NCBI RefSeq assembly: GCF_003634965.1
Contig: NZ_RBXP01000013.1
Span: forward strand, 1-64,000
Direction: 5' to 3'
Length of the DNA: 64,000 nt
Source of the DNA: Azonexus fungiphilus
Lineage (GTDB): Bacteria > Pseudomonadota > Gammaproteobacteria > Burkholderiales > Rhodocyclaceae
Shown one piece after another: positions 5,666-34,508 of this stretch. Both the position numbers and the translations under genes were made by a program. How positions within the stretch are numbered: position 1 is the stretch's first letter; each line of letters begins with the position of its first letter. The notes beneath the pieces are model-generated. The model was not told the origin of the DNA. It ran no database searches and saw nothing but the letters and a program-made list of their open reading frames with translations.

Positions 5666-5723
5666 CCTATGTAACAATAGCGATTCTCATTTAGCGAGCC
5701 AGCCACGATGTAGCGCCAGCCAG
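5666..5723 (+). promoter_or_regulatory. Fur-like operator and tandem CCAGCC leader 1
   Basis: The AT-rich stretch AACAATAGCGATTCTCATTT (5673-5692) resembles a Fur box (GAnAATnATTCTC type). Directly behind it lie CCAGCC (5699) and GCCAGCCAG (5715-5723), 17 bases apart start to start. The arrangement precedes a haem-type receptor, and a GGAGG ribosome-binding site follows at 5748. Confidence 0.6.
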
Positions 5724-5755: not shown

Positions 5756-8035
5756 ATGCATCGCTCAGCCCTGTACGGCTTGCGCGCCATTCCGTTGGCG
5801 CTTTTCTGCGCCTTCCCGCCGCTCCCCGCCTTCGCCGACAACACCCTCGGCGAAACCATCGTCACCGCCAACCGCCGCGAAACCAGCGTCGACAGCATGA
5901 CGACCACCGTTACCAGCATCAATCGCGAACAGCTCGACCGCGCCCTGCCAATCGACGACGCCGACCTCTTCCGCGATGAAACCGACGTCGTCATGGCGCG
6001 CGACTTGCGCCGCCACGGCGCGACCCGGGTCAATATCCGCGGCATGGAGGACAACCGTGTGGTGTCGACCATCGACGGCGTGCGCATGTCTGATCACCTG
6101 GACTTCGGCGGCCCGACCAACTACACCTCGAGCGCCCCGATCGGAGTCATGCCCGATTTCCTGCGCCGCGTCGAAATCGTCCGCGGCCCGGCCTCCAGCC
6201 TCTACGGCTCGGACGCCCTCGGCGGCCTGGTCGGCTACCTGACCCTCAACCCGGAAGACATTGCCCGCCACGGCGCCGCCTTCGGCGCCCGCGCCAAGGC
6301 CAGCTACAGCAGCGCCAACCGCGGTTTCACCGGGACGCTGATCGGCGCCTGGCGCGGCGAAGTGGCGGACTTCCTGTTCGGTTACTCCCAGGGCGCCAGC
6401 AAGGAGACCGAGAACATGGGCAGCAACGGCAGCCGGCACAGCAGCGTCAACGGCAACCACAACTCGAACACCCGCAGCAAGCCGAACCATCTCGACAACG
6501 ACGACAAGGGCGCGATCGCCAAGCTCGTGCTGCGGCCGGCAAGCGGCCACCGCGTCACGACCACCGTGGAAGGCCGGCAAACGCAGACCGACGCCGACAT
6601 TCTGCTCATCCCCTACGGCCTGCGCCGGGTCGAGACGATGAGCGGCAACGACGAAAGCCGGCGCCTGCGCGGCAGCATCGAGTACGAGCACAAGCCGGCC
6701 AATGCTTTCTACGACCGGCTCGCGGCGCGCCTCTCGCACCAGCGCTCGACAACCGAAAACGACAACTTCCAGCAGCGCAGCAACACCTCGTTCAGCGGCC
6801 TCTCCGGCTGCTCGGCAACCGGTGTCGGGGCCAACACCTGCGACATCTGGCAGGTTTTCGAGTTCGCCCAGACCGATACCGCGGTCAACGTGCAGCTGGA
6901 TTCGAGCTTCAGCGTCGGCGCCAGCACGCACATCCTCAGCTACGGCTTCGACCTGATGCGGCAGTCGGTAGCCACCGAGCGCAACAACTACGCGCTCCGT
7001 GCCGGCATCAAGGTGCCGAACCCGGGCGGCGATGCCGATACGGTGCATGACTTCCCCGACGGCAAGACCGACAAGCTCGGCGTCTTCATCCAGGACGAGA
7101 TCGGCCTGTTCGCCAACCGTCTGACGCTGACCCCCGGCATTCGCTACGACCGGACCAAGCTCAAGCCCGACAACGATGCCGACTGGAAGGGCGTTGGCCA
7201 GCCGCCGGGCGCCACCTGGAGCCATGTATCGCCGAAACTCGGTGTGCAATGGCAGGTCGACCCGATGCTCAGCGCCTACGGCCAGATCGCTGGTGGTTTC
7301 CGGGCGCCGAACTACAAGGACGTCAACTACGCCTTCTTCAACCAGGCCCAGAGCTACGCCGTCGCTTCCAACCCCGACCTCAAACCGGAAACCAGCGTCG
7401 GCGTCGAACTGGGCGTGCGCGGCCGCACCGCCCGCGCGTCCTTCCAGTTCTCCGTCTACGACAATCGCTACAAGGACTTCATCAGCCTGGAGAGCCTCGA
7501 CTGCCCGACCAACCCGGCGTGCGTCGCGGGCGCCGCCTTCGGCACCTCGCAGTACCAGAACCTGGCCAAGGTCCGTATCTACGGCGCCGACCTGCGCGGC
7601 GCCTACCGCCTGACCGAGCAGTGGCAAATCGACGGATCGCTGTCCTACGCCCGCGGCAAGGACGAGGATACCAACGCCGGCCTGACCAGCATCGAACCGC
7701 TACGTGCCAGCCTCGGCGTCCAGTACACCGTCGGCGACTGGGGGGCCGAAGGCCGCCTGCGCCTGGCCAAGGCCAAGTCCCGCAGCAGCCTGGGCAACAC
7801 CACCACGCAGTACTACCGTCCGGCCGGCTATGGCGTCACCGACCTGACCGCCTGGTACCGTCTGTCCCGGAACACGCGCATCGTCGGTTCGGTCAACAAC
7901 CTGTTCGACAAGAAATACTGGCTGTGGGGCGATACCCGCCACGTCGGCCTGACCACGGCCGCAACCGACACCAACCCCGACTTCTTCACCCAGCCGGGGC
8001 GTAATTTCCGCCTGTCGCTGCAAGCCGATTTCTGA
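5756..8035 (+). CDS. TonB-dependent haem/haemoglobin-type receptor (HmuR-like)
   Basis: Outer-membrane receptor of 759 residues: signal peptide ending FPPLPAFA, a TonB-box-like ETIVTA right after it, a plug (VNIRGMEDNRVVSTIDGV near residue 97; VEIVRGPASSLYGSDALGG near 140) and a 22-stranded barrel ending in Phe. The 'RGMEDNRV...IDGVR' plug and overall length match the haemoglobin/haem/lactoferrin receptor subfamily. The start at 5756 has TGGAGG upstream. It heads a locus that includes ChaN and a chelatase, which supports haem as the substrate; the ligand remains an inference. Confidence 0.88.
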   Translation: MHRSALYGLRAIPLALFCAFPPLPAFADNTLGETIVTANRRETSVDSMTTTVTSINREQLDRALPIDDADLFRDETDVVMARDLRRHGATRVNIRGMEDNRVVSTIDGVRMSDHLDFGGPTNYTSSAPIGVMPDFLRRVEIVRGPASSLYGSDALGGLVGYLTLNPEDIARHGAAFGARAKASYSSANRGFTGTLIGAWRGEVADFLFGYSQGASKETENMGSNGSRHSSVNGNHNSNTRSKPNHLDNDDKGAIAKLVLRPASGHRVTTTVEGRQTQTDADILLIPYGLRRVETMSGNDESRRLRGSIEYEHKPANAFYDRLAARLSHQRSTTENDNFQQRSNTSFSGLSGCSATGVGANTCDIWQVFEFAQTDTAVNVQLDSSFSVGASTHILSYGFDLMRQSVATERNNYALRAGIKVPNPGGDADTVHDFPDGKTDKLGVFIQDEIGLFANRLTLTPGIRYDRTKLKPDNDADWKGVGQPPGATWSHVSPKLGVQWQVDPMLSAYGQIAGGFRAPNYKDVNYAFFNQAQSYAVASNPDLKPETSVGVELGVRGRTARASFQFSVYDNRYKDFISLESLDCPTNPACVAGAAFGTSQYQNLAKVRIYGADLRGAYRLTEQWQIDGSLSYARGKDEDTNAGLTSIEPLRASLGVQYTVGDWGAEGRLRLAKAKSRSSLGNTTTQYYRPAGYGVTDLTAWYRLSRNTRIVGSVNNLFDKKYWLWGDTRHVGLTTAATDTNPDFFTQPGRNFRLSLQADF

Positions 8036-8042
8036 CCCCAGC

Positions 8043-8079
8043 GGCCGGCGCTGCTGCAAGCGCCGGCCTTTTCCTTTTC
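8043..8079 (+). terminator. intrinsic terminator after the HmuR-like receptor
   Basis: A 10-bp stem (8043-8052 with 8059-8068) and 6-base loop followed by TTTTCCTTTTC, eight bases after the receptor stop. It should terminate part of the transcription between the receptor and chaN, lowering expression of the downstream chelatase genes relative to the receptor. Confidence 0.75.
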
Positions 8080-8090
8080 AGGGAGGCATC

Positions 8091-9053
8091 ATGCCGGCAC
8101 CGCTGTGCAACAATCCGGGAAAAATGCGTCCCGATGACGGTCGACCGTCATCGGGACGCATTTTTCTCCAGCGTCTTTCCCGGGCCGGCGCGCTGCTCGC
8201 CGCCTGCCTGCTTGGCCCCGGCACAGCCGCCGCCAGCGAACGCATCGTGGCCACGGCCGACGGCCAGGCGATCGGACGTGAAGTGCTGCTGCAGCGTCTC
8301 GCCGGGCACGACCTGATCCTGCTCGGCGAACTGCACGACAACCCGCATCACCATGCCGCCCGGGCCTGGCTGCTCGAGAAACTGGCAGCAACCCGGCCGG
8401 CAATCGTCGCCGAGCACCTCGAGCACGGCCGGCAGGCCAGCGGCAACGGCCCCCTGCTCGCCGATCTCGAAAGCGCCGGCTTCGATGCCGGCAACTGGCG
8501 CTGGCCGGTACACCAAGCGCTGTTCGAGGCAGCCCGCCGTACCGGCGGCACGCTGCACGGCGGCAACATCCCGCGCCAGCTTGCCCGCGACATCGTCAAG
8601 CGGGGCGCCGACGCACTGCCCGCCGACGTTGCCGCGGCGATCGCCGACGCCCCACTCGACGCCAACGCCCGGCAAACGCTAGAGCGCGATCTGCTCGACA
8701 GCCACTGCGGCCAGCTACCGGCCACGTTGATTCCCGGCCTGAGTCTGGCTCAACGCGCCCGCGACGCAGCGATGAGCCTGGCCATCGGCACCGCCCTGAA
8801 CAGCGGCCACCCGGTCATCCTGCTCGCCGGCAACGGCCATGTCCGCCGCGATTACGGCATCCCGGTCCTGCTCGAACGCCAGCAGCCGGGACGCCGGCGT
8901 GTCGCCATCGGCTTCCTCGAAAGCGACACTGCCAACGCCGCACAAGCCGCCGCACTGGCCAGCCGTTTCGATTACCTGTGGATCACCGAGCCGGCCGAGC
9001 GCCGCGATCCCTGCCTGGATTTCCCCAAGCCACAGACGGCACCGGCCGCCTGA
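8091..9053 (+). CDS. chaN: ChaN family haem-binding lipoprotein-like protein
   Basis: 320 residues of the haem-binding ChaN/Tiki-like family: LLGELHDNPHHH near residue 83 and a C-terminal LLAGNGHVRRDYG carry the conserved Glu/His residues. ChaN homologues bind haem in iron-regulated loci. GGGAGG supports ATG 8091. The signal peptide is odd: about 25 polar residues precede the hydrophobic core (SRAGALLAACLLGPGTAAA), and codons 10-25 of that extension are a perfect 48-bp palindrome. No ATG, GTG or TTG follows the palindrome before the core, so translation must run through it. A Cys lies in the core, but a lipobox is not clear. Confidence 0.85.
   Translation: MPAPLCNNPGKMRPDDGRPSSGRIFLQRLSRAGALLAACLLGPGTAAASERIVATADGQAIGREVLLQRLAGHDLILLGELHDNPHHHAARAWLLEKLAATRPAIVAEHLEHGRQASGNGPLLADLESAGFDAGNWRWPVHQALFEAARRTGGTLHGGNIPRQLARDIVKRGADALPADVAAAIADAPLDANARQTLERDLLDSHCGQLPATLIPGLSLAQRARDAAMSLAIGTALNSGHPVILLAGNGHVRRDYGIPVLLERQQPGRRRVAIGFLESDTANAAQAAALASRFDYLWITEPAERRDPCLDFPKPQTAPAA
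8119..8166. repeat. perfect 48-bp palindrome with GGTCGACC core
   Basis: Two perfect 24-base arms meet at 8142/8143. The outer ends are an A-run on the left and a T-run on the right, so the RNA from either strand is a long stem ending in U residues, the form of a bidirectional intrinsic terminator. It lies inside the first 26 codons of chaN and belongs to the GGTCGACC palindrome family (37142, 48208, 54830). Confidence 0.9.
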
Positions 9054-9088
9054 CCCCGTTCACTTCCCGACAGCCCAGCCAGGTGCCC

Positions 9089-12000
9089 ATGAGCGAGCTA
9101 CGCGCCCTCCTTCTTTCCGCCCTTCTCTTCTGCAGCGGCCAGGCGGTCGCCGGGAACATCCTGTTTGTCGCCACGTCGCCGGTGCCGCCGGGCAAGTTCA
9201 AGGTGATCGCGGAAATTGCCCAGAAATACGGGTTGACCGTGGACGCCCATTTCGCCGAGCGGATCGCACCGGAGAAGGCGGACACGCTGTTCGACGGACG
9301 CGACGCGGTGATCTTCGACGCCGGCCGCAGCCACATGCAGGACGCGGTCAGGCGCCGGCTGGAAAAACCACTGGCCCGGCTGAATACCCGGCACATCTGG
9401 ATGCGCGACAATGGCCCGCTCGCCGCCGGGTTCACCCAGACGCAGGCCGAACGCCTGCACGCCTATTACACCAACGGCGGGCGCGCCAATTTCGACGGTT
9501 TCTTCGCCACCCTCGCCGCCGAACTGCGCGGCCAGCCGGCGCCGAAGGTGGCGCCGCCATTCGTCTTCCCGGAAGACGCCGTCTACCACCCGCAAGCCCC
9601 CAACCAGGTATTCGCGACGCCGGCCGAGTATTTCCGCTGGCGCGGCATCGACCTTGAAAAGCGGCCGCCGACGGTGGCGATTGCCTTCCACCAGATCTAC
9701 ATCGGCGCCGAGCAGACCGCCTTCATCGACGACCTGATCGCCCGCATCGAAGCCGGCGGCGCCATCGCCCTGCCGTACTACGCCGGCGTGATGACGCCGC
9801 ATGCGCCGATGCTCACCGTTGCCGGCAAGCCGGTCGCCGACACGCTGATCAACACCCAGATCATTCTCAACCCCGAAGGCTGGCGCAAGGAACTGGAAAA
9901 GCTCGGCATTCCGGTGCTCCAGGCGCTCGCCTACCGGCGCGGCGACGAGGCCGCCTGGCGGGCCGACGCGCAGGGCCTACCGATGATCGACGTCCCCTTC
10001 TACCTGTCGCAGGGCGAATACGCCGGCATCATCGACGCAATCATCACCAACGCCGCCGGCAAGGACGGTCAGGTCGTCGTTTTTCCCGAGCAGACCGCCG
10101 CCGTCGTCAACAAGGCGCTCAAGCTGGTTCGCCTGCAGCGCCTGGCCAACGCCGACAAGAAGGTGGCGATGCTGTACTGGAACTATCCGCCGGGCGAAAA
10201 GAACCTGTCGGCCTCCTACCTCAACGTGCCGCGCAGCATCGAAGCCATGCTCAAGGCGATGCAACAGGCGGGCTACGATGTGCGGGCGGACGAGGAAATC
10301 CTGCTGATCAACAACCTGCAGCGCCTGCTCGCCCCCTTCTACCGCGACGGCGAACTCGCCGGGCTGCTGCGCGACGGGCTCGCCGAACGCCTGCCGGTGA
10401 AGGCCTACCGCGCCTGGTTCGACCGTCAGCCGGCGCAGCAGCGCGCGGAGATGCTCGCCCGCTGGGGGCAACCGGAAAAATCGTCGATGGTCGTCGTCGA
10501 CCGTGGCGAAGCCTACTTCGTGATCCCGCGCTATCCGGTCGGCAAGATCGTCTTCTCGCCCCAGGCGCCGCGCGGCGAGCGCTGGGAGGACAAGGAAAAG
10601 GCGCTCTACCACTCGTCGGTGGCGGCGCCCTCGCACTACTACATGGCGCACTACCTGTGGGTGCGCGAGCAGTTCAAGGCCGACGCCATCGTGCACTACG
10701 GCACGCACGGCTCGCAGGAATGGCTGCCCGGCAAGGAGCGCGGCCTGCCGGTCGGCGACTACCCGCTGGCCGCCATCGGCGATGTGCCGGTGATCTATCC
10801 CTACATCGTCGACAACATCGGCGAGGCGCTGCAGACCAAGCGCCGCGGCCGTGCCGTCAACATCACCCACCAGACACCGCCGTTCGCACCGGCCGGCCTG
10901 CACGGCACGCTCAATGAAATCCACGACCTGCTGCACGACTGGCAGCGCCAGGACGAAGGCGCGGTGAAGGAGAAAATTGCGGTCGACCTGCTGAAAAGGG
11001 TAAAAAAGGAACGCATCGACAAGGACATGGGCTGGGACGAGCAGCGCATCGCTGCCGACCTGCGCGGCTTCGTCGACGAACTGCACAGCCACTTGCACGA
11101 ACTGGCGCAGACCGCGCAGCCGCTCGGCCTGCACACGCTGGGCACGGCGCCGGCCGAAAAATTCCGCCTCGGCACCGTCCTCCTGATGCTCGGCAAACCG
11201 TTCTGGGAAGCCGCCGCCAAGGCGACCGGCGTGCCCGACCAAGACCTCGACGAAGCCTTCGTCGGCGATTATGAGAAGAGCGCCGAAACGCCGGCCTGGC
11301 GCCTGCTACGCGCCTTCATCGACGGCCAGCCGGTGGTCGCCGACAATAAGCTGAAAGGCCAGCTCGAACAGGGTCGCAAATGGTACGCCGACCTCGGCGC
11401 CGCCGGCGAGATGGACCGCCTGCTGGCGGCGCTGGCCGGCCGCCACATCCCGACCTCCTACGGCGGCGACCCGATCAAGAATCCGGACGCCCTGCCGACC
11501 GGGCGCAACCTCTACGGCTTCGACCCGTCGCGGGTGCCCACCAAACAAGCCTGGGAGGCCGGCAAGGAAGCCGCCGCCGCGCTGATCGCCGCGCACCGCG
11601 CCAAGACCGGGCGGGCGCCGAAGAAGCTGACATTCACGCTGTGGTCGGTGGAAACCATGCGCCACCAGGGGCTGCTCGAAGCGCAGGCGCTGGCGGCGAT
11701 GGGCGTCGAGCCGGTATGGGACGCCGGCGGCCGGGTCATCGACGTCAGGCTGATCCCGCGCGAACAGCTCGGGCGCGCCCGCGTCGACGTCGTCCTCTCG
11801 GCCACCGGCCTGTACCGCGACCACTTCCCGAACGCCATGAAGCAACTGGCCAAGGCGGCCGAACTCGCCGCCCGCGCCAACGAAGCCGACAACCCGGTAT
11901 ACGCCAACAGCCAGCGCATCGCCGCCAGCCTCAAGCAGCGCGGCGTGCCGGAAGCGGCCGCACAACGGGCGGCGGAAACACGCATCTTCTCCAACGCCTC

Positions 12001-13012
12001 CGGCCGCTACGGCACCGGGCTGGACGACGCGGCGCTGGCCACCGACACCTGGAAAAGCAAGGCCGAAGGCGACCGCAAGCTGGCCCAGCTCTACCTGCGC
12101 AACATGCAGTACGCCTTCGGCAGCGACGAATCGAGCTGGGGCAGCAAGGGCACCGTCGGCGGCGAAGACGTCAACCTCTACGCCGAGCACCTCAAGGGCA
12201 CCGAGGGCGCCGTACTGTCGCGCAGCTCCAACCTCTACGGCATGCTCACCACCGACGACCCCTTCCAGTACCTCGGCGGCATCGGCAGCGCCGTTCGTTA
12301 TCTCGACGGCAAGGCGCCGGAACTGTACATCGCCAACCTGCGCGGCAGCGGCGCCGGCAAGGTCGAAGGCGCCGACAAATTCCTGGCCAAGGAACTCGCC
12401 ACCCGCAACTTCCACCCCGGCTACATCAAGGGGCTGATCGCCGAAGGCTATTCCGGCACCCTGCAGGTGCTCGACTCGATGAACAACTTCACCGGCTGGA
12501 CCACGGTCGCCCGCGAAATCGTCCGCGACGACCAGTGGCAGGAGTTCGTCGATGTCTATGTCCGCGACAAGCACCAGCTCGGCCTGAAGGACTGGTTCGA
12601 GAAGAACAACCCGCACGCGCTGGCGCAGACCATGGAGAAGATGCTGGAAATGGCCCGCCACGGCTACTGGCAAGCCGACGCGAAGACGGTCGCCGAATTG
12701 AAGGAACGCTACAACGATCTGGCCCGCCGCTTCGACGTCCGGAGCGACAACGCCGCCTTCGAGAAATTCGTCGCTGCCGGCTTCGGTAGCGCCGCCGCGC
12801 CGCGCCCGGCCCCCAGCGCGAGCCGCCCGCAAAGCGCCGCCGACCTGGCGCCACCGCCCGAACCGGCAGCGCCGCCGCCGATCCAGGGCATGCTGCTGCA
12901 GAAGGTCGAAATCAAGGCGCCGGCGGCACCACCCCTGGCGCTGTTCGGCGCCGGCCTGCTGCTCCTGGCCGGCCTCGGCGGCGCCGCCTCGGCCTGGCGG
13001 AGGCCGGCATGA
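9089..13012 (+). CDS. secreted, membrane-anchored CobN/HmuS-like chelatase
   Basis: 1307 residues of the CobN/ChlH large chelatase subunit family; the hallmark HYGTHGSQEWLPGK lies near residue 536. Unlike cytoplasmic CobN it has an N-terminal signal peptide (LLLSALLFCSGQAVAG), a Pro/Ala-rich linker after about residue 1230 and a C-terminal hydrophobic helix (LALFGAGLLLLAGLGGAA) ending in RRP, so the catalytic body should sit in the periplasm anchored to the inner membrane. There are no CobS/CobT ATPase genes nearby. In Bacteroidota hmu loci, HmuS, a related protein, is linked to haem use and reported to remove iron from haem. Role inferred: metal removal from a tetrapyrrole imported by the neighbouring receptors. 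Stop overlaps the next start (ATGA). Confidence 0.85.
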   Translation: MSELRALLLSALLFCSGQAVAGNILFVATSPVPPGKFKVIAEIAQKYGLTVDAHFAERIAPEKADTLFDGRDAVIFDAGRSHMQDAVRRRLEKPLARLNTRHIWMRDNGPLAAGFTQTQAERLHAYYTNGGRANFDGFFATLAAELRGQPAPKVAPPFVFPEDAVYHPQAPNQVFATPAEYFRWRGIDLEKRPPTVAIAFHQIYIGAEQTAFIDDLIARIEAGGAIALPYYAGVMTPHAPMLTVAGKPVADTLINTQIILNPEGWRKELEKLGIPVLQALAYRRGDEAAWRADAQGLPMIDVPFYLSQGEYAGIIDAIITNAAGKDGQVVVFPEQTAAVVNKALKLVRLQRLANADKKVAMLYWNYPPGEKNLSASYLNVPRSIEAMLKAMQQAGYDVRADEEILLINNLQRLLAPFYRDGELAGLLRDGLAERLPVKAYRAWFDRQPAQQRAEMLARWGQPEKSSMVVVDRGEAYFVIPRYPVGKIVFSPQAPRGERWEDKEKALYHSSVAAPSHYYMAHYLWVREQFKADAIVHYGTHGSQEWLPGKERGLPVGDYPLAAIGDVPVIYPYIVDNIGEALQTKRRGRAVNITHQTPPFAPAGLHGTLNEIHDLLHDWQRQDEGAVKEKIAVDLLKRVKKERIDKDMGWDEQRIAADLRGFVDELHSHLHELAQTAQPLGLHTLGTAPAEKFRLGTVLLMLGKPFWEAAAKATGVPDQDLDEAFVGDYEKSAETPAWRLLRAFIDGQPVVADNKLKGQLEQGRKWYADLGAAGEMDRLLAALAGRHIPTSYGGDPIKNPDALPTGRNLYGFDPSRVPTKQAWEAGKEAAAALIAAHRAKTGRAPKKLTFTLWSVETMRHQGLLEAQALAAMGVEPVWDAGGRVIDVRLIPREQLGRARVDVVLSATGLYRDHFPNAMKQLAKAAELAARANEADNPVYANSQRIAASLKQRGVPEAAAQRAAETRIFSNASGRYGTGLDDAALATDTWKSKAEGDRKLAQLYLRNMQYAFGSDESSWGSKGTVGGEDVNLYAEHLKGTEGAVLSRSSNLYGMLTTDDPFQYLGGIGSAVRYLDGKAPELYIANLRGSGAGKVEGADKFLAKELATRNFHPGYIKGLIAEGYSGTLQVLDSMNNFTGWTTVAREIVRDDQWQEFVDVYVRDKHQLGLKDWFEKNNPHALAQTMEKMLEMARHGYWQADAKTVAELKERYNDLARRFDVRSDNAAFEKFVAAGFGSAAAPRPAPSASRPQSAADLAPPPEPAAPPPIQGMLLQKVEIKAPAAPPLALFGAGLLLLAGLGGAASAWRRPA

Positions 13013-15132
13013 GCCGGCATCTGGGCCTGCTCGCGCTGACCCTGGCGGCGCTGCCGGCACTGGCCGACGAGACGCGGACGCTGGAGACGATCACCGTCAC
13101 CGCAAGCGGCGACGCGATCGATGAAAGGCTCGCCGCGGCAACCCAGAAAACCGTCATCGAGCGCGCGGAAATCGAGGCCCTGGGGGGGTTGACCGTCAAC
13201 GAGGTGATTCGCAAGCTGCCCGGCATCGACGCCGGCAACCACAGCGGTGACGGCGGCCCGGCCGCCAACGCCCGCGGCATGGGCCGCGACGCGGTGCAGT
13301 TCCTGGTCGACGGCGAACGCCCGAGCGCCAACGCCCGCTACGCGCTGACCGCGGTCGGCCGACTGCCGTCCGGCGAACTCGAGCGCATCGAGATCCTGCG
13401 CGGCGCCTCGGCCGAACACGGCGGCGGCGCCGCGATCACCGTCAACCTGATCATGAAGAAAGCGCGTCCGAGCACTGCCTCGACCTCGCTGCGCGTTGCC
13501 GCCGGCACCCGCGGCGACGAAGCCAACGGCCAGCTCAGCGCCAGCCTGGGCGGCGGCGACAAGGCCTTTTCCTGGACCTTGCCGCTGTCGATCAACCACC
13601 ACGGCATGCCCACCGACAAAAAGACCGTCCGCCAGGCGTCGACCGCCGGCATGCGCACGGCCTGGGAAATCGAGCGCGAGCGCGGCGCCTACACGCTCGA
13701 CGAATTCATCCTTTCGCCGCGCCTGACCTGGCGCGACGATGCCGGCACGCTGACGTTGTGGCCCAGCCTCTACCACAACCGCGGCGAACGCAGTACCGAG
13801 GTCGACCGCCTGGCCTACGCCGATCCGCTCGCCGGCAGCGGGCTGGCCGACGATGGCGGCCGCCGCGACCGCGAGGACAGCGCGATGACGCTGCTGCGCC
13901 TGCGTCTCGAAGGCGAGCGCAAGTTCGCCTTCGGCAAGCTTTCCGGCCGCGTCGCACTACTCGACGGCGAGCGCCGCAGCGACACCGCGCGCCGCTGGCG
14001 CGATGCGCTCGGCGCGACAACGCGGGCCGACGAGGCGATCCGCCGTGACGAAAACGAATTTTCCTCCGCCGTGCGCGTCGACCGTGGCATCGGCAACGGC
14101 CTGTTTTCCGCCGGTCTCGAACAGAGCTGGCACCGGCGCGAGGAAAGGCAGCGCATCACCGGTGCCGGCGCGCTGCGCAGCGACCATGCGGCGACGTCGA
14201 AACAATGGAGCGCCTGGCTGCAGCACGAGGCGCCGCTGGGCGACAAACTGACGCTGACCGGCGGCCTGCGCGGCGAACACATCGCGCTCACCGCCGACGG
14301 CCGTGCCCAATCGGCCAGCCAGTTGGCGCCGTCGCTGGCGGCGCGCTTCGAGATCGCACCCGACCTGATCTTGCGCTCCTCAATCGGCGCCGGCATCAAG
14401 GCGCCGAAAATCGACGAAATCTCGGGGTTGACCGTGCGCGCCACCGGCAGCAACAGCCCGCTCGAACCCGACCGCGCCGGCAACGGCAGCCTCGAGGCCG
14501 AGCGCAACCTCAACTGGGAAGCGGCGCTGGAAAAACGCCTGCCCGGCGACCTCGGCATCGTCGGCGCCAACCTTTACCTGCGCCGCACCGAGGATTTCAT
14601 CGAACGCCGCACGCAGCTCGAAGGCACGCGCTGGGTCGAGCGCCCCTACAACGAGGGCACGGCCCGCCACTGGGGGCTGGAACTCGACGCCAAGCTGAAG
14701 ACCGACCGCCTCGGCTGGAAAGGCGCCGCGCTGCGCAGCCACCTGACGCTGCCGAAAGCCCGTGTCGACGATGAGCGCCTCGGCCTGACCCGCGACGCCC
14801 GCGAACTGCCGCGCTACCAGTTCACCCTCGGCGTCGACCAGGCGCTGCCGGCGTGGCAGGCCAGCGCCGGCTTCCGCCTGACACAGCAAGGCCGCGTGCG
14901 CACCGACATTCCCGGCGAGACGAGCACCCGCCAACGCCCGAAAACCCTGCTTGACCTCTACCTGACCCGGCGACTGACGCCGCAGCTGAACCTGCGCCTC
15001 GACGCGCAGAACCTGCTGCGCGCCGACACCCGCCGCATCGCCACGTTCACCGCCAGCGCCGACGACTGGCGGCTGGCCGGCGACGAGCGCGGCCAGCGCA
15101 CGCTGCTGCTGTCGCTCGAAGGCAAGTGGTAA
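13009..15132 (+). CDS. TonB-dependent receptor coupled to the chelatase
   Basis: 707-residue outer-membrane receptor with signal peptide (LLALTLAALPALA), TonB-box-like ETITVTAS, plug segment ALGGLTVNEVIRKLPGIDAG, an IEILRGASAEHGGGAAITVN plug hairpin and a barrel ending LSLEGKW. It overlaps the chelatase by ATGA and is followed within 33 bases by the ExbB-like gene, so it is the second receptor of the haem-type operon. The plug is more like FepA/BtuB-type receptors than the HmuR-like receptor upstream, so the two may take different tetrapyrroles or act in sequence. Ligand unknown. Confidence 0.85.
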   Translation: MSRHLGLLALTLAALPALADETRTLETITVTASGDAIDERLAAATQKTVIERAEIEALGGLTVNEVIRKLPGIDAGNHSGDGGPAANARGMGRDAVQFLVDGERPSANARYALTAVGRLPSGELERIEILRGASAEHGGGAAITVNLIMKKARPSTASTSLRVAAGTRGDEANGQLSASLGGGDKAFSWTLPLSINHHGMPTDKKTVRQASTAGMRTAWEIERERGAYTLDEFILSPRLTWRDDAGTLTLWPSLYHNRGERSTEVDRLAYADPLAGSGLADDGGRRDREDSAMTLLRLRLEGERKFAFGKLSGRVALLDGERRSDTARRWRDALGATTRADEAIRRDENEFSSAVRVDRGIGNGLFSAGLEQSWHRREERQRITGAGALRSDHAATSKQWSAWLQHEAPLGDKLTLTGGLRGEHIALTADGRAQSASQLAPSLAARFEIAPDLILRSSIGAGIKAPKIDEISGLTVRATGSNSPLEPDRAGNGSLEAERNLNWEAALEKRLPGDLGIVGANLYLRRTEDFIERRTQLEGTRWVERPYNEGTARHWGLELDAKLKTDRLGWKGAALRSHLTLPKARVDDERLGLTRDARELPRYQFTLGVDQALPAWQASAGFRLTQQGRVRTDIPGETSTRQRPKTLLDLYLTRRLTPQLNLRLDAQNLLRADTRRIATFTASADDWRLAGDERGQRTLLLSLEGKW

Positions 15133-15165
15133 GCCGCCCCCATTCACCCACCGCACGGAGACCCC

Positions 15166-15648
15166 ATGTCCAATCTTGTCGAACTGACCATGTACCAGAT
15201 CTCGCAGCTCTTCCTGCTGCCGACGCTGGCGCTGATCGCCGCCCTCTTCCTGTACGCCTTCTGGGTGCTCGGCGAATTCCTCGTCCTCGCCTGGCGCCGC
15301 CGCAGCGGCCACGGGCGACCGCTGGTCGCCCAGTTCCGCGCCCGACCGACGCTCTCCGACGACCAACTCGACGTGCTCGCGCACAAGGCGCTGGAAAATC
15401 CGCGCATCGCCAGCCGGGTAACGCCGATGCTCGGCCTGGTGGCGACGATGATCCCGATGGGACCGGCGCTCAAGTCGCTCTCCGACGGCAACCTCGCCGA
15501 GGTCTCGAACAACCTGACGATCGCCTTCTCGGCGGTGATCCTGGCGCTGATCGCGGCGTCGATCACCTACTGGGTGGTCAACGTCCGGCGCCGCTGGCTG
15601 GCCGAGGAAATCCTCGAAATCCAGGCGCTGCGTGGGGTGGCGGCATGA
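15166..15648 (+). CDS. MotA/TolQ/ExbB-family proton-channel-like protein
   Basis: 160 residues with an N-terminal membrane helix (LFLLPTLALIAALFLYAFWV) and two C-terminal helices containing TPMLGLVATMIPMGPAL and AFSAVILALIAASITYWVV, the MotA/TolQ/ExbB core. It is shorter than the canonical ExbB at 33761. It overlaps the DUF2149 gene (ATGA), and the two together resemble a dedicated ExbB-ExbD-like motor for this operon, as in Bacteroidota hmu loci. Confidence 0.83.
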   Translation: MSNLVELTMYQISQLFLLPTLALIAALFLYAFWVLGEFLVLAWRRRSGHGRPLVAQFRARPTLSDDQLDVLAHKALENPRIASRVTPMLGLVATMIPMGPALKSLSDGNLAEVSNNLTIAFSAVILALIAASITYWVVNVRRRWLAEEILEIQALRGVAA

Positions 15649-15974
15649 GCCTGAAGCTGCTGCACGAGCCGGAGACCGAGGATCCGATCCTGTCGGTGGT
15701 CAACCTGATCGACATCTTCCTGGTGATCATCGCCGCGCTGCTCATCACCGTCGCCAAGAACCCGCTGATCAATCCCTTCAACAAGCAGGACGTGACGGTG
15801 ATCACCGACGCCGGCAAGCCGACCATGGAAGTGCTGGTCAAAAAGGGCGAGAAGATCGAGAAATACAAGGCGAGCGGCGAAATCGGCGGCGGTGACGGCG
15901 AGAAGGCCGGCGTCGCCTACAAGATGAAGGACGGTTCCATGGTCTACGTGCCGGAAACCGCGCCCGCCCAGTAA
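15645..15974 (+). CDS. DUF2149 protein (ExbD-like)
   Basis: 109 residues: a short cytoplasmic N-terminus, one membrane helix starting with an Asp (NLIDIFLVIIAALLITVA) and a small periplasmic domain (residues 45-109). The Asp at the helix start matches the essential Asp of ExbD (compare LVDVMLVLLIIF in the ExbD at 34509). The family is known from chelatase-TBDT operons. Inferred role: partner of the ExbB-like protein in energising the haem-type receptors or the chelatase. Confidence 0.83.
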   Translation: MSLKLLHEPETEDPILSVVNLIDIFLVIIAALLITVAKNPLINPFNKQDVTVITDAGKPTMEVLVKKGEKIEKYKASGEIGGGDGEKAGVAYKMKDGSMVYVPETAPAQ

Positions 15975-15992
15975 CCCAGCCACCAGGACAGC

Positions 15993-16763
15993 ATGCCAGT
16001 TTCCCTCGCCCGCCCCCACCCGCACCGCATCCTTGAATGCCTGACCAGTCGCCGCTTCGCCGTCGAATACCAGCCACTGGTATCGACCCGCGACGGTGAA
16101 AGCCTTTGCCACGAAGCCTTGGCCCGCTTCATCGACGAGCGCGGCGAGTTCCTGCCGCCCAACCTGGTCTTTGAGACGCTGCACGACAACCCGCTACTGC
16201 TGCTCCACGCCGAGCTCGAGACCACGCGCTTGCAACTCGCCGAGGCGCCGGCGCACGGCCTGCTCTTCGTCAATCTCGACCCCGACAGCTATGCCGCCGG
16301 CTACGACGAGAACGGTGCCAACGTCTTCCTGCCGATGCTGCGCCAGCAGCGCAGCCGGCTGGTCGTCGAGGTCATCGAAAACCTGCACCTGCAGGACGTC
16401 GACCGTGCGGAACGAATGATGGGCGAACTCGACGCCGAGAAGATCGACCTGGCGATCGACGACCTGTCCTCGTCGCGCGGCCTGATTTCCTACGCCGCGC
16501 TGATGCACGCCCGCTATGTCAAGTTCGACCGCAGCTGGCTGGCCGGCGAACTGAGCGCCAAGCAGCGCGTGATCATGACCTGGGTGCTCGCGCAGGCCAG
16601 CGACCTCGGCCTGCGCACAGTGCTCGAAGGCGTCGAGACCCAGGAACACCTGGCACTGGCCCGCCAGTTCGGCTTCGACCTGGTTCAGGGCTACCTCTTC
16701 CGCGATCGCTTCATCCGCCGCGGCTGCCCGCCGCGCACCGGCAGCACCCGCCTAGCTGCCTGA
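15993..16763 (+). CDS. EAL-domain cyclic-di-GMP phosphodiesterase
   Basis: A 256-residue stand-alone EAL domain with no sensor domain or membrane helix. The catalytic set looks complete: EAL in CHEALARF, Asn in FVNLDPDS, Glu in VEVIEN, the DD pair in AIDDLSSS, Lys in YVKFDRSW, EGVET and QGYLF. It should hydrolyse c-di-GMP to pGpG. It starts 18 bases after DUF2149 with an AGGA site, so it is probably transcribed with the haem-type genes, an unusual partner for an uptake operon. Confidence 0.87.
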   Translation: MPVSLARPHPHRILECLTSRRFAVEYQPLVSTRDGESLCHEALARFIDERGEFLPPNLVFETLHDNPLLLLHAELETTRLQLAEAPAHGLLFVNLDPDSYAAGYDENGANVFLPMLRQQRSRLVVEVIENLHLQDVDRAERMMGELDAEKIDLAIDDLSSSRGLISYAALMHARYVKFDRSWLAGELSAKQRVIMTWVLAQASDLGLRTVLEGVETQEHLALARQFGFDLVQGYLFRDRFIRRGCPPRTGSTRLAA

Positions 16764-17175: not shown

Positions 17176-17793
17176 ATGTCCCGTTACACCGGTCCCCGTC
17201 TCAAGGTCCTGCGTGCGCTCGGCGTCGATCTGCCGGGTCTGTCGCGCAAGTCGATGCAGGAGCGCGCCCAGCCGCCCGGCCAGCACGGCGCCCGCAAGGT
17301 CGCCGCGCGCAAGTCCGAATTCGGTCTGCAACTGATGGAAAAGCAGAAACTGCGCTACAACTACGGCCTGACCGAACGCCAGTTGCGGCGCGCCGTCGCC
17401 GACGCCAAGAAGCATCGCGGCGCCACCGGGGGCAAGCTGGTCGAGCTGCTCGAACGCCGCCTCGACAACATGGTTTTCCGCGCCGGCTTCGCCCCGACCA
17501 TCCCGGCTGCCCGCCAGCTGGTCAGCCACGGCCATTTCCAGCTCAACGGCAAGCGGGTGACGATCCCGTCGATCCGCCTGCGCATCGGCGACGCCTTCGG
17601 GCCGACCGAAGCCGGCCGCAAGATCGACCTGGTCCGCGCCACACTCGAGGATCCGGCGCTCGAGCGCCCGGAATGGATCAGCCTTGACGGCACCACCCAG
17701 ACCGCCCGCCTGACCCACTTGCCGGACGGCGATTCCGCCCCCTTCCCGCTCGACCTGCAGCGCGTCGTCGAATACTACGCCACCCGCATGTAA
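17176..17793 (+). CDS. paralog of 30S ribosomal protein S4, cysteine-free
   Basis: 205 residues: the N-terminal S4 domain (SRYTGPRLKVLRALG, PPGQHGARK), then the S4 RNA-binding fold with LLERRLDNMVFRAG and ARQLVSHGHFQLNGKRV, and an ending VEYYATRM. It contains no Cys at all. The sequence resembles cyanobacterial/Firmicutes-type S4 more than the usual proteobacterial S4, and it is outside any ribosomal operon, so it is an accessory, probably transferred copy. It lies behind a Fur-like operator and next to hemP, suggesting it is made under metal starvation. Confidence 0.88.
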   Translation: MSRYTGPRLKVLRALGVDLPGLSRKSMQERAQPPGQHGARKVAARKSEFGLQLMEKQKLRYNYGLTERQLRRAVADAKKHRGATGGKLVELLERRLDNMVFRAGFAPTIPAARQLVSHGHFQLNGKRVTIPSIRLRIGDAFGPTEAGRKIDLVRATLEDPALERPEWISLDGTTQTARLTHLPDGDSAPFPLDLQRVVEYYATRM

Positions 17794-17813: not shown

Positions 17814-18044
17814 ATGGAACAAACCCTGCGTATTCCCTTCCTTCACGCCAACGGCCCGCGCGGCACGCTGCGCCTGAATCGCGACAAGCCGGCGCCGGCC
17901 GCCGACAGCGAAGCCGGCCGGCCGGAGCTGTGCATTTCCAGCCGCTCGCTGTTCGGCAACGCCAGCGAGATCTTCATCCGCCACTGCGGCAGCGAGTACC
18001 GCCTGCGCATCACCCGCCAGGACAAGCTGATCCTGACCAAGTAG
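17814..18044 (+). CDS. hemP: HemP family hemin uptake protein (copy 1)
   Basis: 76 residues; the C-terminal half carries the HemP signature: SSRSLFGNASEIFIRHCGSE then YRLRITRQDKLILTK at the end. HemP proteins are small, soluble and iron-repressed; in Burkholderia HemP acts as a regulator needed for hemin uptake gene expression. GAGGAG precedes ATG 17814. It shares a transcript with the S4 paralog (20-base gap). A second HemP is at 32837. Confidence 0.9.
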   Translation: MEQTLRIPFLHANGPRGTLRLNRDKPAPAADSEAGRPELCISSRSLFGNASEIFIRHCGSEYRLRITRQDKLILTK

Positions 18045-19165: not shown

Positions 19166-21223
19166 ATGGACCTGCCCCGCCTCACCCCGCTCGCCCTGGC
19201 GCTGCTCTGCGCCCATGCGACGGTCAACGCCCAAGAAACGACACTTTCCGCGGTCAACGTCAGCGCCAAGGGCTATGCCTCGGCCGACCTCGAGACGCCG
19301 ATCTCGACGACCACTCTCGACGCCGACGAAATTGCCCGGCGCGGCGCCGCCAACGTCGGCGACGCGCTGCGCGGCGAGCCCGGCATCGCCATCTCGAACG
19401 ACAGCGCGCAGGGCCAGAACCCGGTGATCCGCGGTCTCGGCAAGGAAAGCACGGTGCTGCTGGTTGATGGCATGCGCTTCAATTCGGCGCAGCCGGCCGG
19501 CGCCGTCGCCTCGTTCATGACCCTCGGCCTGGCCGAGCGCGTCGAAGTGGTCAAGGGCGGCGCCTCGGTGCTCTACGGTACCGGCGCGCTCGGCGGCGCG
19601 ATCAACGTGCTGATGCCGCAGGCAAAATTCACCCCCGGTATCGGCCTCAAGGCCGGCGCCAGCTACGACAGCGCCAGCGAAGGCTGGCGCGGCACGGCCG
19701 TGGTCAACGCCAGCCAGGGCGACCACGCGCTGATGCTCGGCGCCTCGCTCGCCCGCATCAACGACTACGACTCGCCCAAAGGCAAGGTCGACCGTACCGC
19801 TTACGATTCCGACGCCTTCATCGGCCAGTACCGCTTCCGCATCGACAACCGGCAGCAGCTGCGCGTCTCGGCGCAGCATCATCGCGACGAGGACGTCTGG
19901 TACCCGGGTTCGACGCGCCCCCACGCCAGCCCGCTGGTCGGCAGCACCACGGTGCATTCGCCGCAGCAGGAACGCCGCCTTTACGAGATCGGCTACCAGC
20001 GCCAGGGCGACGGCGCCGCGCCGGTCAATGTCGACCTGCGCGCCTACCGCCAGGAAATGGAGCGCAGCATCTACAGCTACGGCAACACGCTGCAGCGCGA
20101 CATCGTCACCAACACGGTCACCTTCCGCACCGACGGCATCGACGCCAAGGCCGACTGGCTGGCGCATCCGCAGCATCTGCTGTCGTTCGGCGCGAATGCC
20201 TGGAAGATGACCGGCAACCCCGACCGCTACATGGCGACCGGCGCGCCCTTCACCACGCTGACCGCCAACAATCCCTTCCAGCACGCCGAAATCCGCGCCC
20301 TCGGGCTCTACCTGCAGGACGACATGCGCTTCGGCCAGCTCAACCTGCTCGCCGGCCTGCGCTGGGACAGCGTCGAGGGCGACGCCGCCAGCATGGGCAA
20401 CGGCGCCCGCACCAGCGGCCTCGGCAAGAAGGAAACCGCCTTCTCCGGCAGCCTCGGCGCGGTCTATGAAGTGGCCCCGCTGCTGCGTCCCTACGCCAGC
20501 GTCGCCCGCGCCTTCCGCGCGCCGGGCATGCGCGAGCGCTACGAGTCGGGTCTGCGCGGCGACGGCTATTTCTACGCCGGCAGCCCGGAAGTCGAATCGG
20601 AAAAGGCCGACCAGTTCGAGCTCGGCCTCAAGGGCGCGACGTCCACGGTCAACTACCAGATTTCGGCGTTTTTCAACCGCATCGACAATTACATCACCGG
20701 CCAGATCCTCACCGGCGCCGCCGCCACCGCCGCTTGCGGCGCGGCCAACGCGGGCAACTGCAAGAAGACGGTCAACCTCGGCAGCGCGACGATCAAGGGC
20801 GTCGAAGCCAGGGTCGCCTGGCAGGTCGCCGGCGGCCACTGGCTGAACGCCGGCTACTCGCGCATCCGCGGCGACAACGACGATCTGAACGAACCGCTGT
20901 TCCAGATGCCGGCCGACGAGATTTCGCTCGGCTGGATCGGCGGCGTGCTGCCCGGCGTCAAGGCCGACTTCACGCTGCGCCTGGTCGACGAACAGGATCG
21001 CGTCGCCACGCAATTCACCCGCGGCACGGAAAACCGCACGGCCGGCTTCGTCACCGCCGACCTCGGTGCAACCTGGCAGTTCGCCAAGGACCAGAGCCTG
21101 CGCTTCGCCGTCAAGAACCTGGCCGACAAGACCTACCACGAGCACCTGACCGAAGGCGTCTCCGGCAACGAGATCAAGGCCCCGGGCCGCAGCGTCCAGC
21201 TCGCCTGGCGCGGGAGCTTCTGA
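19166..21223 (+). CDS. TonB-dependent receptor linked to an ABC importer
   Basis: 685-residue receptor: signal peptide (LALALLCAHATVNA), TonB-box-like TTLSAVNVSA, plug with NPVIRGLGKESTVLLVDGMR (near residue 90) and VEVVKGGASVLYGTGALGG, and a barrel ending in Phe. It contains one small Cys pair in an extracellular-loop-like region (TAACGAANAGNCKK). The following genes overlap by one or four bases and encode a NitT/TauT-type ABC importer, so receptor and importer probably handle the same small ligand. The ligand is not clear: haem, copper complexes or a cofactor precursor are all possible. Confidence 0.87.
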   Translation: MDLPRLTPLALALLCAHATVNAQETTLSAVNVSAKGYASADLETPISTTTLDADEIARRGAANVGDALRGEPGIAISNDSAQGQNPVIRGLGKESTVLLVDGMRFNSAQPAGAVASFMTLGLAERVEVVKGGASVLYGTGALGGAINVLMPQAKFTPGIGLKAGASYDSASEGWRGTAVVNASQGDHALMLGASLARINDYDSPKGKVDRTAYDSDAFIGQYRFRIDNRQQLRVSAQHHRDEDVWYPGSTRPHASPLVGSTTVHSPQQERRLYEIGYQRQGDGAAPVNVDLRAYRQEMERSIYSYGNTLQRDIVTNTVTFRTDGIDAKADWLAHPQHLLSFGANAWKMTGNPDRYMATGAPFTTLTANNPFQHAEIRALGLYLQDDMRFGQLNLLAGLRWDSVEGDAASMGNGARTSGLGKKETAFSGSLGAVYEVAPLLRPYASVARAFRAPGMRERYESGLRGDGYFYAGSPEVESEKADQFELGLKGATSTVNYQISAFFNRIDNYITGQILTGAAATAACGAANAGNCKKTVNLGSATIKGVEARVAWQVAGGHWLNAGYSRIRGDNDDLNEPLFQMPADEISLGWIGGVLPGVKADFTLRLVDEQDRVATQFTRGTENRTAGFVTADLGATWQFAKDQSLRFAVKNLADKTYHEHLTEGVSGNEIKAPGRSVQLAWRGSF

Positions 21224-22206
21224 TGCGCCGCCGGTTCGCCGCCCTGCTGACGGTGCTTGCGCTGGCGACACCGGCCTTGGCGGCGGGCCGGCTGCCTTCA
21301 CTGGTGCTCGCCGGTCCGCCGGCCTCGGTGTCGACGCCGCTGATCCACATGATCGACAGCGGCGCCTTGAAGGATCTCGCCGACAAGGTCGAGTTCCGCG
21401 TCTGGAAGGACCCCGACCAGCTGCGCGTGCTCGCCCTCGGCGGCCAGGCCGATTTCGTCGCGATGCCGAGCAACGTCGCCGCCAATCTCTACAACCGCGG
21501 CGTCAAGCTGCGCCTGCTCAACATCTCGACCTGGGGCGTGCTGTGGATGGTGTCGCGCGACGGCCAGGCAAAGACGCTGGCCGATTTCCGCGGCAAGGAA
21601 ATCGCCATGCCCTTCCGCGCCGACATGCCCGACATCGTCTTCAGCCTGATTGCCGCCCGCCAGGGCCTCGACGCCAGAAAGGACTTCCGCCTGCGCTACG
21701 TCGCCTCGCCGCTCGACGCGATGCAGCTGCTGGTCACCCGTCGCGTCGACCACGCGCTGCTCGCCGAGCCGGCGGTGTCGATGGCGCTGCGCAAGACGAA
21801 ATCCTTCCCGATCAGCGTCATTGCGCCCGAACTGCACCGCAGCGTCGACCTGCAACAGGAATGGGGGCGCCTGTACCAGCGCGAGGCACGCATCCCGCAG
21901 GCCGGCATCGTCGCCATCGGACGGTCCACGGTCGACCGCGATCTGCAGGCAAAAATCATGGCGGCCTACGAAAAATCGCTGGCCTGGTGCCAGAAGAACG
22001 CCATGGCTTGCGGCGAGATGGTCGCCAAACGCATCGACCTGCTCAGCCCGGAAGCCGTCGCCGATTCGCTGGCGGTCAGCCAGATGCGCCATGTGCCGAT
22101 CGCCGCCGCGCGCGCCGAGCTGCAATTCTTCCTCGAACGCCTGCACGGCGAGAACCCGGCGCTGGTCGGCGGCAAACTGCCCGACGACGCCTTCTACGGC
22201 CCATGA
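21223..22206 (+). CDS. periplasmic substrate-binding protein, NMT1/NitT-TauT type
   Basis: 327 residues with signal peptide (LLTVLALATPALA) and the type-II periplasmic binding fold of the NrtA/SsuA/ThiY group: a two-lobed pattern with GGQADFVAMPSNVAANLYNRG, ADFRGKEIAMPFRADMP and VDHALLAEPAVSMAL. It begins inside the receptor stop (TGATG) and overlaps the permease. Substrates of this class include nitrate, sulfonates and thiamine precursors; here the TBDT neighbour suggests a larger or chelated ligand. Confidence 0.85.
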   Translation: MRRRFAALLTVLALATPALAAGRLPSLVLAGPPASVSTPLIHMIDSGALKDLADKVEFRVWKDPDQLRVLALGGQADFVAMPSNVAANLYNRGVKLRLLNISTWGVLWMVSRDGQAKTLADFRGKEIAMPFRADMPDIVFSLIAARQGLDARKDFRLRYVASPLDAMQLLVTRRVDHALLAEPAVSMALRKTKSFPISVIAPELHRSVDLQQEWGRLYQREARIPQAGIVAIGRSTVDRDLQAKIMAAYEKSLAWCQKNAMACGEMVAKRIDLLSPEAVADSLAVSQMRHVPIAAARAELQFFLERLHGENPALVGGKLPDDAFYGP

Positions 22207-32836: not shown

Positions 32837-33013
32837 ATGAACAGCCAGCCCAAATCCGTGCCATCAGCCAGCCCGCCCCCGGCGGCCGGCAACCTGCCCC
32901 GGCTCGATAGCGGACAGATACTGCAGGGGGCCAGCACCGTCGAAATCGAACATGCGGGCCAGCGCTACCTGCTGCGCGTGACCCGCGAGAACAAGTTGAT
33001 CCTGACCAAATAG
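32837..33013 (+). CDS. hemP: HemP family hemin uptake protein (copy 2)
   Basis: 58 residues. The N-terminal 25 are Pro/Ser/Ala-rich; the C-terminal half is the HemP domain: LDSGQILQGASTVEIEHAGQ, then RYLLRVTRENKLILTK at the end, nearly identical in its last residues to copy 1. No strong Shine-Dalgarno is visible. Its first codons encode two AGCCAGCC stretches (at 32841 and 32860), so the recurrent leader motif occurs here inside the coding region. It precedes the TonB-ExbB-ExbD genes. Confidence 0.85.
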   Translation: MNSQPKSVPSASPPPAAGNLPRLDSGQILQGASTVEIEHAGQRYLLRVTRENKLILTK

Positions 33014-33042
33014 TTTTTCTCTCCGTTGTAAGACCTGTTCCC

Positions 33043-33074
33043 GTAGCCAGCGCGCCACAAGCCAGCAAGCCAAG
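33043..33074 (+). promoter_or_regulatory. tandem CCAGCC-type leader 5, before tonB
   Basis: TAGCCAGC (33044-33051) and GCCAGCAAGCCA (33061-33072) lie between hemP copy 2 and tonB. No separate Fur-like box is visible in this 92-base gap, so transcription may come from the hemP promoter. Confidence 0.5.
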
Positions 33075-33105
33075 GGTTTTTTCGGCGTGCTCGGGACACC
33101 ACCTG

Positions 33106-33759: not shown

Positions 33760-33760
33760 C

Positions 33761-34507: not shown

Positions 34508-34508
34508 C

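Follow-up and report, generated by a model that had tools for sequence, protein, structure and literature searches.

Does the secreted, CobN-like chelatase that Azonexus fungiphilus encodes between two TonB-dependent receptors take iron from haem outside the cytoplasm, and is it a relative of HmuS, the chelatase of the Bacteroidota hmu locus? The locus lies at positions 5756-16763 of NZ_RBXP01000013.1, of which we analyzed positions 1-64,000 (64,000 nt, hereafter the window). An earlier note, made from the sequence alone, had read it as an HmuS-like route of haem dechelation, and this reading stood in part: a link between a chelatase outside the cytoplasm and a haem-type receptor was supported by our analysis, kinship with HmuS was not. 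What we see here is a real and conserved operon for haem iron, probably controlled by Fur, whose chelatase lies outside the cytoplasm. The fuller reading that we prefer, and to which we assign a probability of roughly one half, is a haem-iron route with extracytoplasmic dechelation, in which a motor pair acts on the chelatase and for which a secreted chelatase was recruited separately.

Gene content of the operon

The block comprises seven genes, all on the plus strand, with order and ends as first read. The order receptor, ChaN, chelatase, second receptor, ExbB-like protein, DUF2149 protein and EAL-domain protein, which the earlier note had given, was confirmed by profile matches and coordinates. 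The features of the block and its flanks are as follows:

5676-5694, plus strand: Fur-box-like site, 62-80 bp 5' of the first receptor start (12/19 positions agree with the consensus)
5756-8035, plus strand: haem-type TonB-dependent receptor, P0001 (TIGR01786 425.8 bits, cut-off 323.75)
8043-8068, plus strand: terminator-like hairpin with T-run in the gap between receptor and ChaN genes (10-pair stem, 9 G-C)
8091-9053, plus strand: ChaN family protein, P0002 (PF04187, E 1.6e-37)
9089-13012, plus strand: secreted class I chelatase of 1307 amino acids, P0003 (PF02514 992 bits, over its length)
9089-9151, plus strand: signal-peptide-like start of the chelatase (hydropathy; cleavage site by eye)
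10706-10708, plus strand: codon of His540, counterpart of HmuS His538 (motif HYGTHG, HFG(T/A)HG in HmuS; alignment)
10922-11098, plus strand: histidine cluster H612, H616, H666, H668 and H670 (two consecutive helices in the model)
12245-12280, plus strand: cleft motif LTTDDPFQYLGG, HmuS counterpart LSLDHVYEFMGG (alignment)
12929-12997, plus strand: C-terminal transmembrane anchor of the chelatase (17-residue hydropathy 2.04; limits by eye)
13009-15132, plus strand: second TonB-dependent receptor, P0004 (PF00593 and PF07715)
15166-15648, plus strand: ExbB-like protein with three hydrophobic segments, P0005 (PF01618 27.2 bits, cut-off 22.9; hydropathy)
15645-15974, plus strand: DUF2149 protein with one transmembrane segment, P0006 (PF09919 100 bits)
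15993-16763, plus strand: EAL-domain protein, P0007 (PF00563, E 1.6e-31)
17814-18044, plus strand: HemP, hemin uptake protein family, just 3' of the operon (PF10636 67 bits)

As the intergenic gaps do not exceed 56 bp and two 4-bp overlaps occur, a single transcript is likely; the hairpin behind the first receptor gene speaks the other way, and terminator-like sites of its type number 12 against 10.1 expected from shuffles. The gene set is more than a chance assembly, because genes for chelatase, ExbB-like and DUF2149 proteins co-occur in nearly all relatives with enough flanking sequence. The block itself contains no B12 genes. Its first receptor also exceeds the cut-off of TIGR01785 (415.0 bits versus 316.85). 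FRAP and NPDL boxes, between which haem receptors of the HmuR/HemR type have a histidine, are both present in this receptor, with no histidine between them. The second receptor stays below every NCBIfam cut-off listed (119.7 bits for TIGR01785, cut-off 316.85) and fits no named substrate class. In the ChaN protein, LAAC is by eye a possible lipobox. The signal peptide and C-terminal anchor that had been proposed for the chelatase were both seen, each called from hydropathy only.

Placement of the chelatase

Relatives were taken from 43 stretches of family genomes and the best 80 of 584 named loci; PF02514 is present in 35 of the 121 family genomes searched. We aligned 127 chelatases, leaving out L052, whose chelatase frame was not recovered, and the partial frames of G035 and G093, and repeated the main counts on the 116 of the 127 that share less than 95% identity (referred to as non-redundant). 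Trees of 130 and 98 tips agree in setting cytosolic CobN and BchH apart from a superclade of secreted chelatases (support 0.778 and 85.2, respectively) and place the window chelatase in a proteobacterial clade, W, which has 70 tips in the 130-tip tree and from which two basal tips, L125 and L140, fall out in the 98-tip tree. A C-terminal transmembrane-like stretch occurs in 63/70 members of clade W and in 0/8 cytosolic chelatases; CobN of CobNST and ChlH/BchH share the six-domain fold and the catalytic-loop histidine with the window protein; those compared here are cytosolic and lack this stretch in 8/8 cases. The phylogeny that the earlier note had asked for therefore bears out a position outside cytosolic CobN and BchH, but not a grouping with HmuS. 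Bacteroidota HmuS is a separate long branch inside the secreted superclade with nodes of 97.8-100 between it and W (in the 98-tip tree the HmuS clade consists of two sequences, one of them partial), and the sister of W in the 98-tip tree is the group of a paralogue from the same genome that is preceded by a cobalamin riboswitch, the best-supported such relation (97 in the Shimodaira-Hasegawa-like approximate likelihood ratio test).

The window chelatase reaches neither TIGR02257 for CobN (498.6 bits, cut-off 822.05), above whose cut-off the cytosolic CobN proteins of L035, L036 and L038 lie, nor TIGR02025 for ChlH/BchH (557 bits, cut-off 829). It does reach NF004644, 'cobaltochelatase subunit CobN' (1406.5 bits, cut-off 1248); as this model also takes the haem-linked protein of L055, its name tells little. 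No AAA+ partner is encoded beside the window chelatase, and the PF01078 matches of the genome are on other contigs (C5, C6, C1 and C4). A ChlI-type AAA+ neighbour is found at the cytosolic CobN genes of L036, L037 and Halococcus, and none among the genes tested at those of L038, L040 and L042.

The AlphaFold2 model of the chelatase (predicted local distance difference test score 90.7) shows the six-domain fold common to CobN, HmuS and ChlH. Foldseek E-value and VIA-align Z both rank CobN 7c6o as its nearest fold (TM-score 0.84, Z 51.3, root-mean-square deviation 3.4 over 1090), and the values for HmuS 9d26 are a TM-score of 0.80, a Z of 40.7 and a deviation of 5.3 over 1121; structure matches beyond class I chelatases have Z values of about 10 or less and are single Rossmann-like domains. 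By sequence score HmuS is the best solved relative (396 bits versus 366 for Mycobacterium tuberculosis CobN), and the trimmed identity is 0.31 to HmuS and 0.36 to CobN 7c6o.

The hmuYRSTUV operon known from Bacteroidota (PMC12583661, PMC13227078) resembles the window operon in its secreted, anchored class I chelatase, TonB receptor, ExbB-like and DUF2149 proteins, in HmuS His538, kept as His540, and in FeoB as the proposed entry of iron. It differs in hmuY and hmuT, which have no counterpart in the window operon, and in lacking the ChaN, second receptor and EAL genes that the latter adds. The chelatases also differ in their residues. The Met-rich insertion of HmuS is missing from the window protein (no stretch of 120 residues has more than 5 Met, versus 30 in Prevotella HmuS). 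At the neck haem ligand, His254-Gly-Arg in HmuS, there is no His in the window protein, for which two alignments give E263 or TQ-I. The head ligand Met79 (Met78 in Prevotella) is Gly in the window protein and mostly Pro in clade W, the N-terminal alignment being less certain, and LSLDHxxEFMGG is replaced by the cleft motif listed above, with D1057 and Q1060 in the places of His1209 and Glu1212. Of five features able to separate HmuS from other chelatases, these four and the branching with Bacteroidota HmuS, the window chelatase has none; secretion, fold and the counterpart of His538 are present, but are common to wider sets, His540 even to all 127 aligned chelatases including the cytosolic ones. 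The proposed kinship with HmuS is thus not supported, and the best reading, from tree and residues, is that a secreted chelatase was recruited to haem independently of the Bacteroidota hmu locus.

The Asp/Gln pair of the cleft is nearly invariant in clade W (Asp in 61/61 and Gln in 60/61 non-redundant members that have a residue there) and is His plus Glu in the alpha clade, which is linked to Zur, and in the 'mix' group. The five-histidine cluster is kept in 58-62 of 62 non-redundant members of W and in 8-9 of 9 members of the alpha clade (alphaZ), and is missing in the alignment from HmuS and M. tuberculosis CobN. We propose that it may serve as a metal relay site.

Haem receptors and regulatory sites in clade W

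Haem signals concentrate on clade W. With a match to a haem model at E 1e-95 or better as the definition of a haem-type receptor, the receptor nearest to the chelatase is of this type at 38/55 loci of clade W and at 0/33 loci of other secreted clades (Fisher 6e-12), counts that, like those of Fur sites, are only partly de-duplicated for the redundant genomes present in both collections; the other clades carry CirA-like (10) and BtuB-like (3) receptors. Neighbouring genes were counted on six-frame open reading frames, since gene calling fails for low-G+C loci. On the non-redundant set, ChaN lies near 15/47 chelatases of clade W versus 0/37 other secreted chelatases, and HemP near 11/45 versus 0/35. 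Fur-like sites with at least 14/19 matching positions precede the receptor at 16/54 loci of W, at 0/23 others and in 20/404 control regions, and Zur-like sites with at least 12/15 matches occur at 3/6 loci of the alpha clade versus 0/54 in W.

In the window, no Rfam family reaches its threshold and hence no cobalamin riboswitch was found, the canonical 19-bp Fur pattern has no match with up to three mismatches, and a 13-bp Zur pattern has one match at chance level. The earlier note had regarded a B12 riboswitch as a sign against haem; none stands before the window locus, but one does inside clade W. By Rfam, 1/9 W loci (window, L045, L046, L047, L050, L055, L056, L059 and L062) has a cobalamin riboswitch, namely L045, and a calibrated riboswitch pattern scan gave no further upstream case in W.

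Further Fur-like sites of the window are found near 16812, 19073, 32770, 48266 and 54877. At L045 (4935-11584), no ExbB-like or DUF2149 gene was called beside the set of riboswitch, receptor and chelatase. L048 (4141-18024) and L054 (4261-17493) each have an operon with a tandem of two distinct secreted chelatases, separated by a receptor.

The paralogue and the search for other haem routes in the genome

In the genome, PF02514 and DUF2149 are each represented by exactly two proteins, one encoded in the operon and the other at L004. There the order is ZrgA, ExbB-like, DUF2149 and secreted CobN, followed by a porin-like gene, ZnuA and genes for an ATP-binding cassette (ABC) transporter; the set is preceded by a cobalamin riboswitch (74.7 bits), and its chelatase is 37% identical to that of the window. 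Within the same locus (8636-14229), ZnuA and the ABC genes are preceded by the Zur-like GTTATAACATCGC.

A search of the genome for other haem routes, which the earlier note had suggested, fell out as its reading would have it: there was no match to HemS, HugZ or HutZ, the search not extending to Dpp-type ABC transporters and IsdG-type enzymes, and the sole FecCD permease adjoins genes for a TonB receptor, an ABC ATPase and CobO. The sole haem oxygenase (PF01126; the genome search gave 22 bits, the complete protein 29.2) is encoded directly behind a phytochrome gene. Since its gene begins at the end of this PHY/GAF/PAS_2 gene, we read it as a chromophore enzyme and rejected it as an iron route. 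HemS occurs in 7/121 genomes and in 0/17 of those with a chelatase of the clade, a difference that is not significant (p 0.59).

The ExbB-like/DUF2149 pair

An ExbB-like protein is encoded near 82/84 non-redundant secreted chelatases with enough flank and near 0/7 cytosolic ones. For DUF2149 the numbers are at least 76/84 and 0/7, the former being a lower bound because the local profile misses five B12a members, one of which was found by Pfam. This co-occurrence holds at haem-, Zur-, cobalamin- and hydrogenase-linked loci alike, and because the pair is constant across these settings, it may act as the power source of the chelatase, substituting for an AAA+ ATPase. In a plasmid survey that covered part of 159 records, 10/11 DUF2149-like records among the matches listed have a CobN-like gene adjacent, by annotation in eight and by coordinates in two from Pseudoalteromonas; the eleventh, from Paracoccus, has none in the annotated stretch. 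Asp23 in the transmembrane segment of DUF2149 is present in 100% of 81 homologues.

The published reading is a different one. HmuV has been described as ExbD-like from AlphaFold models (PMC10100974), and HmuU/HmuV, as an ExbB/ExbD-like pair, have been assigned to driving HmuR (PMC12583661, PMC10100974); the pair would then energize the TonB receptors, and the chelatase would need no motor. That HmuS activity in lysate requires NADH and not ATP (PMC12583661) fits this view, which we nevertheless hold to be rather unlikely. In the paralogue group (CoZ) the pair is present at 3/4 loci and a receptor at 0/4, the window has a TonB-ExbB-ExbD set of its own, and in Trichlorobacter the pair, B12 genes and canonical exbB-exbD-tonB all occur at one locus. 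Among the 14 control genomes, DUF2149 turned up in Methanosarcina acetivorans alone, an archaeon that encodes PF02514 too; TonB receptors are not known from archaea.

A receptor, ExbB, DUF2149 and a CobN-like protein are also encoded inside a NiFe-hydrogenase maturation cluster (hypBF...CDE) of Runella (L165, 3110-12688), possibly as a nickel version of the set.

Proposed route and its alternatives

In our preferred reading, the operon would provide a route, regulated by iron, for haem or a closely related compound. Judging from their families, the first receptor would carry haem across the outer membrane and ChaN may hold it in the periplasm. The inner-membrane-anchored chelatase, with its class I fold and His540, would bind the tetrapyrrole in the central cleft around this residue and extract the iron. 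The ExbB-like and DUF2149 proteins, which accompany the chelatase so constantly, could be a small proton-driven motor on the chelatase and not on the receptor, in the place that the AAA+ ATPases ChlI/ChlD and CobS/CobT hold for the cytosolic relatives. The freed iron might be passed on, perhaps via the histidine cluster, and enter by FeoB.

A number of observations weigh against this reading. In clade W, 17/55 receptors lie below the level of the haem families, and most loci are without ChaN and HemP. The Fur-like site of the window is weak: 71/404 control upstream regions also reach 12/19, and a matrix built from the sites of relatives ranks it 11th in the 64 kb, which 11.75% of 400 controls attain as well. 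At L045, a member of W with 63% identity, haem-type receptor and chelatase stand directly under a cobalamin riboswitch (114.5 bits), and the sister group holds members with such riboswitches (2/4 tested). The Asp/Gln pair also occurs in M. tuberculosis CobN and in the riboswitch paralogue, and since it is shared by W with these and is His/Glu in the alpha clade and 'mix' group, the cleft alone does not predict haem. As for the motor, the hhalign match of DUF2149 with ExbD is weak (36.5%, E 3.7e-4 over 33 columns; best decoy E 0.044), that of the ExbB-like protein with the canonical ExbB profile is not significant (0.9%), and the cytosolic CobN of L038 adjoins canonical TonB-ExbB-ExbD. Finally, BtuS1/BtuS2 of Bacteroides fragilis resemble the window chelatase as periplasmic CobN-like proteins tied to haem iron and FeoAB, in another phylum; a btuS1 btuS2 double mutant grows poorly on haem iron, yet protoporphyrin IX is still released (PMC6460266), so that the dechelatase of such a locus is not necessarily its CobN-like protein.

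The metal could, in principle, be freed from a chelate that is not a tetrapyrrole, the haem-type receptor reflecting family history and the second receptor, with its unnamed substrate class, carrying the real cargo. The module also occurs next to Zur-like sites or ZnuA (3/6 alphaZ promoters, L157), in the hyp cluster of Runella and in the Zur-regulated operon PA1921-PA1925 of Pseudomonas aeruginosa (PMC4542158). The latter shares a receptor, a CobN-like and an ExbD-annotated gene in one operon with the window and, unlike the window, is tied to Zur and zinc starvation (PMC4542158, PMC8531726). All solved relatives, however, handle tetrapyrroles, going by their names as deposited, and ChaN, HemP and haem receptors concentrate on clade W; we regard a metallophore as improbable. 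Slightly more improbable still is a cobalt or corrinoid system, in which the cargo of the receptor would be a cobalt porphyrin or corrinoid, with cobalt added or removed by the chelatase. The riboswitch-preceded paralogue in the nearest group, L045, the DD...Q cleft as in CobN and the filing of the protein as CobN by NF004644 fit such a system; the lack of a riboswitch in the window and in all but one of nine W loci, an operon free of B12 genes and the Fur-like sites, HemP and ChaN of clade W do not. A true HmuS-type haem dechelatase acquired from Bacteroidota is highly improbable: the same kinds of genes and the rank of HmuS as top solved relative by sequence point to it, but the hallmarks are missing and CobN 7c6o is closer in fold and trimmed identity, and horizontal acquisition of the hmu locus was rejected on the missing HmuS residues together with the separate branch.

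Beyond the haem-iron route of the window, we tentatively consider secreted class I chelatases as a single large family whose members extract metals in the periplasm and are driven by protons. In it, a constant ExbB-like/DUF2149 engine would replace the AAA+ ATPase, while receptor, regulator and cleft residues would vary with the metal. Its settings would be haem iron with Fur in W, Zur in the alpha clade and PA1921-1925, cobalamin riboswitches in three clades, NiFe hydrogenase in Runella and HmuYR in Bacteroidota, and none of them would rightly bear the name 'cobaltochelatase subunit CobN'. According to Nath et al. 2025 (PMC12583661), annotation is not possible for most of the bacterial clusters in the chelatase superfamily; the partition of clades by Fur and haem, Zur, cobalamin riboswitch and hydrogenase supplies a testable metal for each cluster. 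It also casts doubt on two published readings, one in which the haem receptor is what the pair drives and one in which HmuV (DUF2149) is taken as diagnostic of haem transport (PMC10100974). Were the pair to power the chelatase, this would be a new, ATP-free way to drive metal chelation or removal, and if the route exists, environmental betaproteobacteria in which no cytosolic haem-degrading route was found could use haem iron independently of oxygen.

Parts of this picture are in print. A pathway from a periplasmic CobN-like protein to FeoAB or FeoB has been put forward for Bacteroides (PMC6460266, PMC12583661), and relatives of HmuS and HmuV in Proteobacteria have been noted, as has an Hmu-like operon in B. 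fragilis that is preceded by a cobalamin riboswitch (PMC10100974). In the open-licence literature of PubMed Central we found no paper on HmuS together with CobN in betaproteobacteria and only PMC13227078 on a periplasmic cobaltochelatase with ExbB and proton motive force; the haem-linked betaproteobacterial clade and the idea of a chelatase motor therefore appear unpublished there.

Surroundings of the operon

Further genes of the window around the operon are the following:

19166-24951, plus strand: cassette of a TonB receptor (19166-21223), substrate-binding protein (21223-22206, matching PF12974), permease (22203-23006), ATPase (23045-23740) and NnrS (23737-24951)
33106-34931, plus strand: canonical TonB, ExbB and ExbD (TIGR01352; PF01618 112 bits, PF02472 113 bits)
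37603-39549, plus strand: FeoB (TIGR00437 354.7 bits, cut-off 315.65)

FeoB at 37603, to which the earlier note had pointed as the way in for iron, is thus real, and bacterioferritin genes are also found in the neighbourhood of the operon. The statement that there is no haem transporter in the block is true of the block, but the ABC transporter and NnrS cassette 4.5 kb downstream recurs beside 7/47 loci of clade W versus 0/37 other secreted loci, and in Diaphorobacter (L163) cassette and chelatase operon are interleaved. We consider the cassette a candidate for the inner-membrane partner of the operon.

A second HemP is encoded directly ahead of TonB-ExbB-ExbD (region 32900-34931). A complete paralogue of ribosomal protein S4 (17176-17793) adjoins the operon, and an S4 gene lies near 11/45 loci of clade W versus 1/35 other secreted loci.

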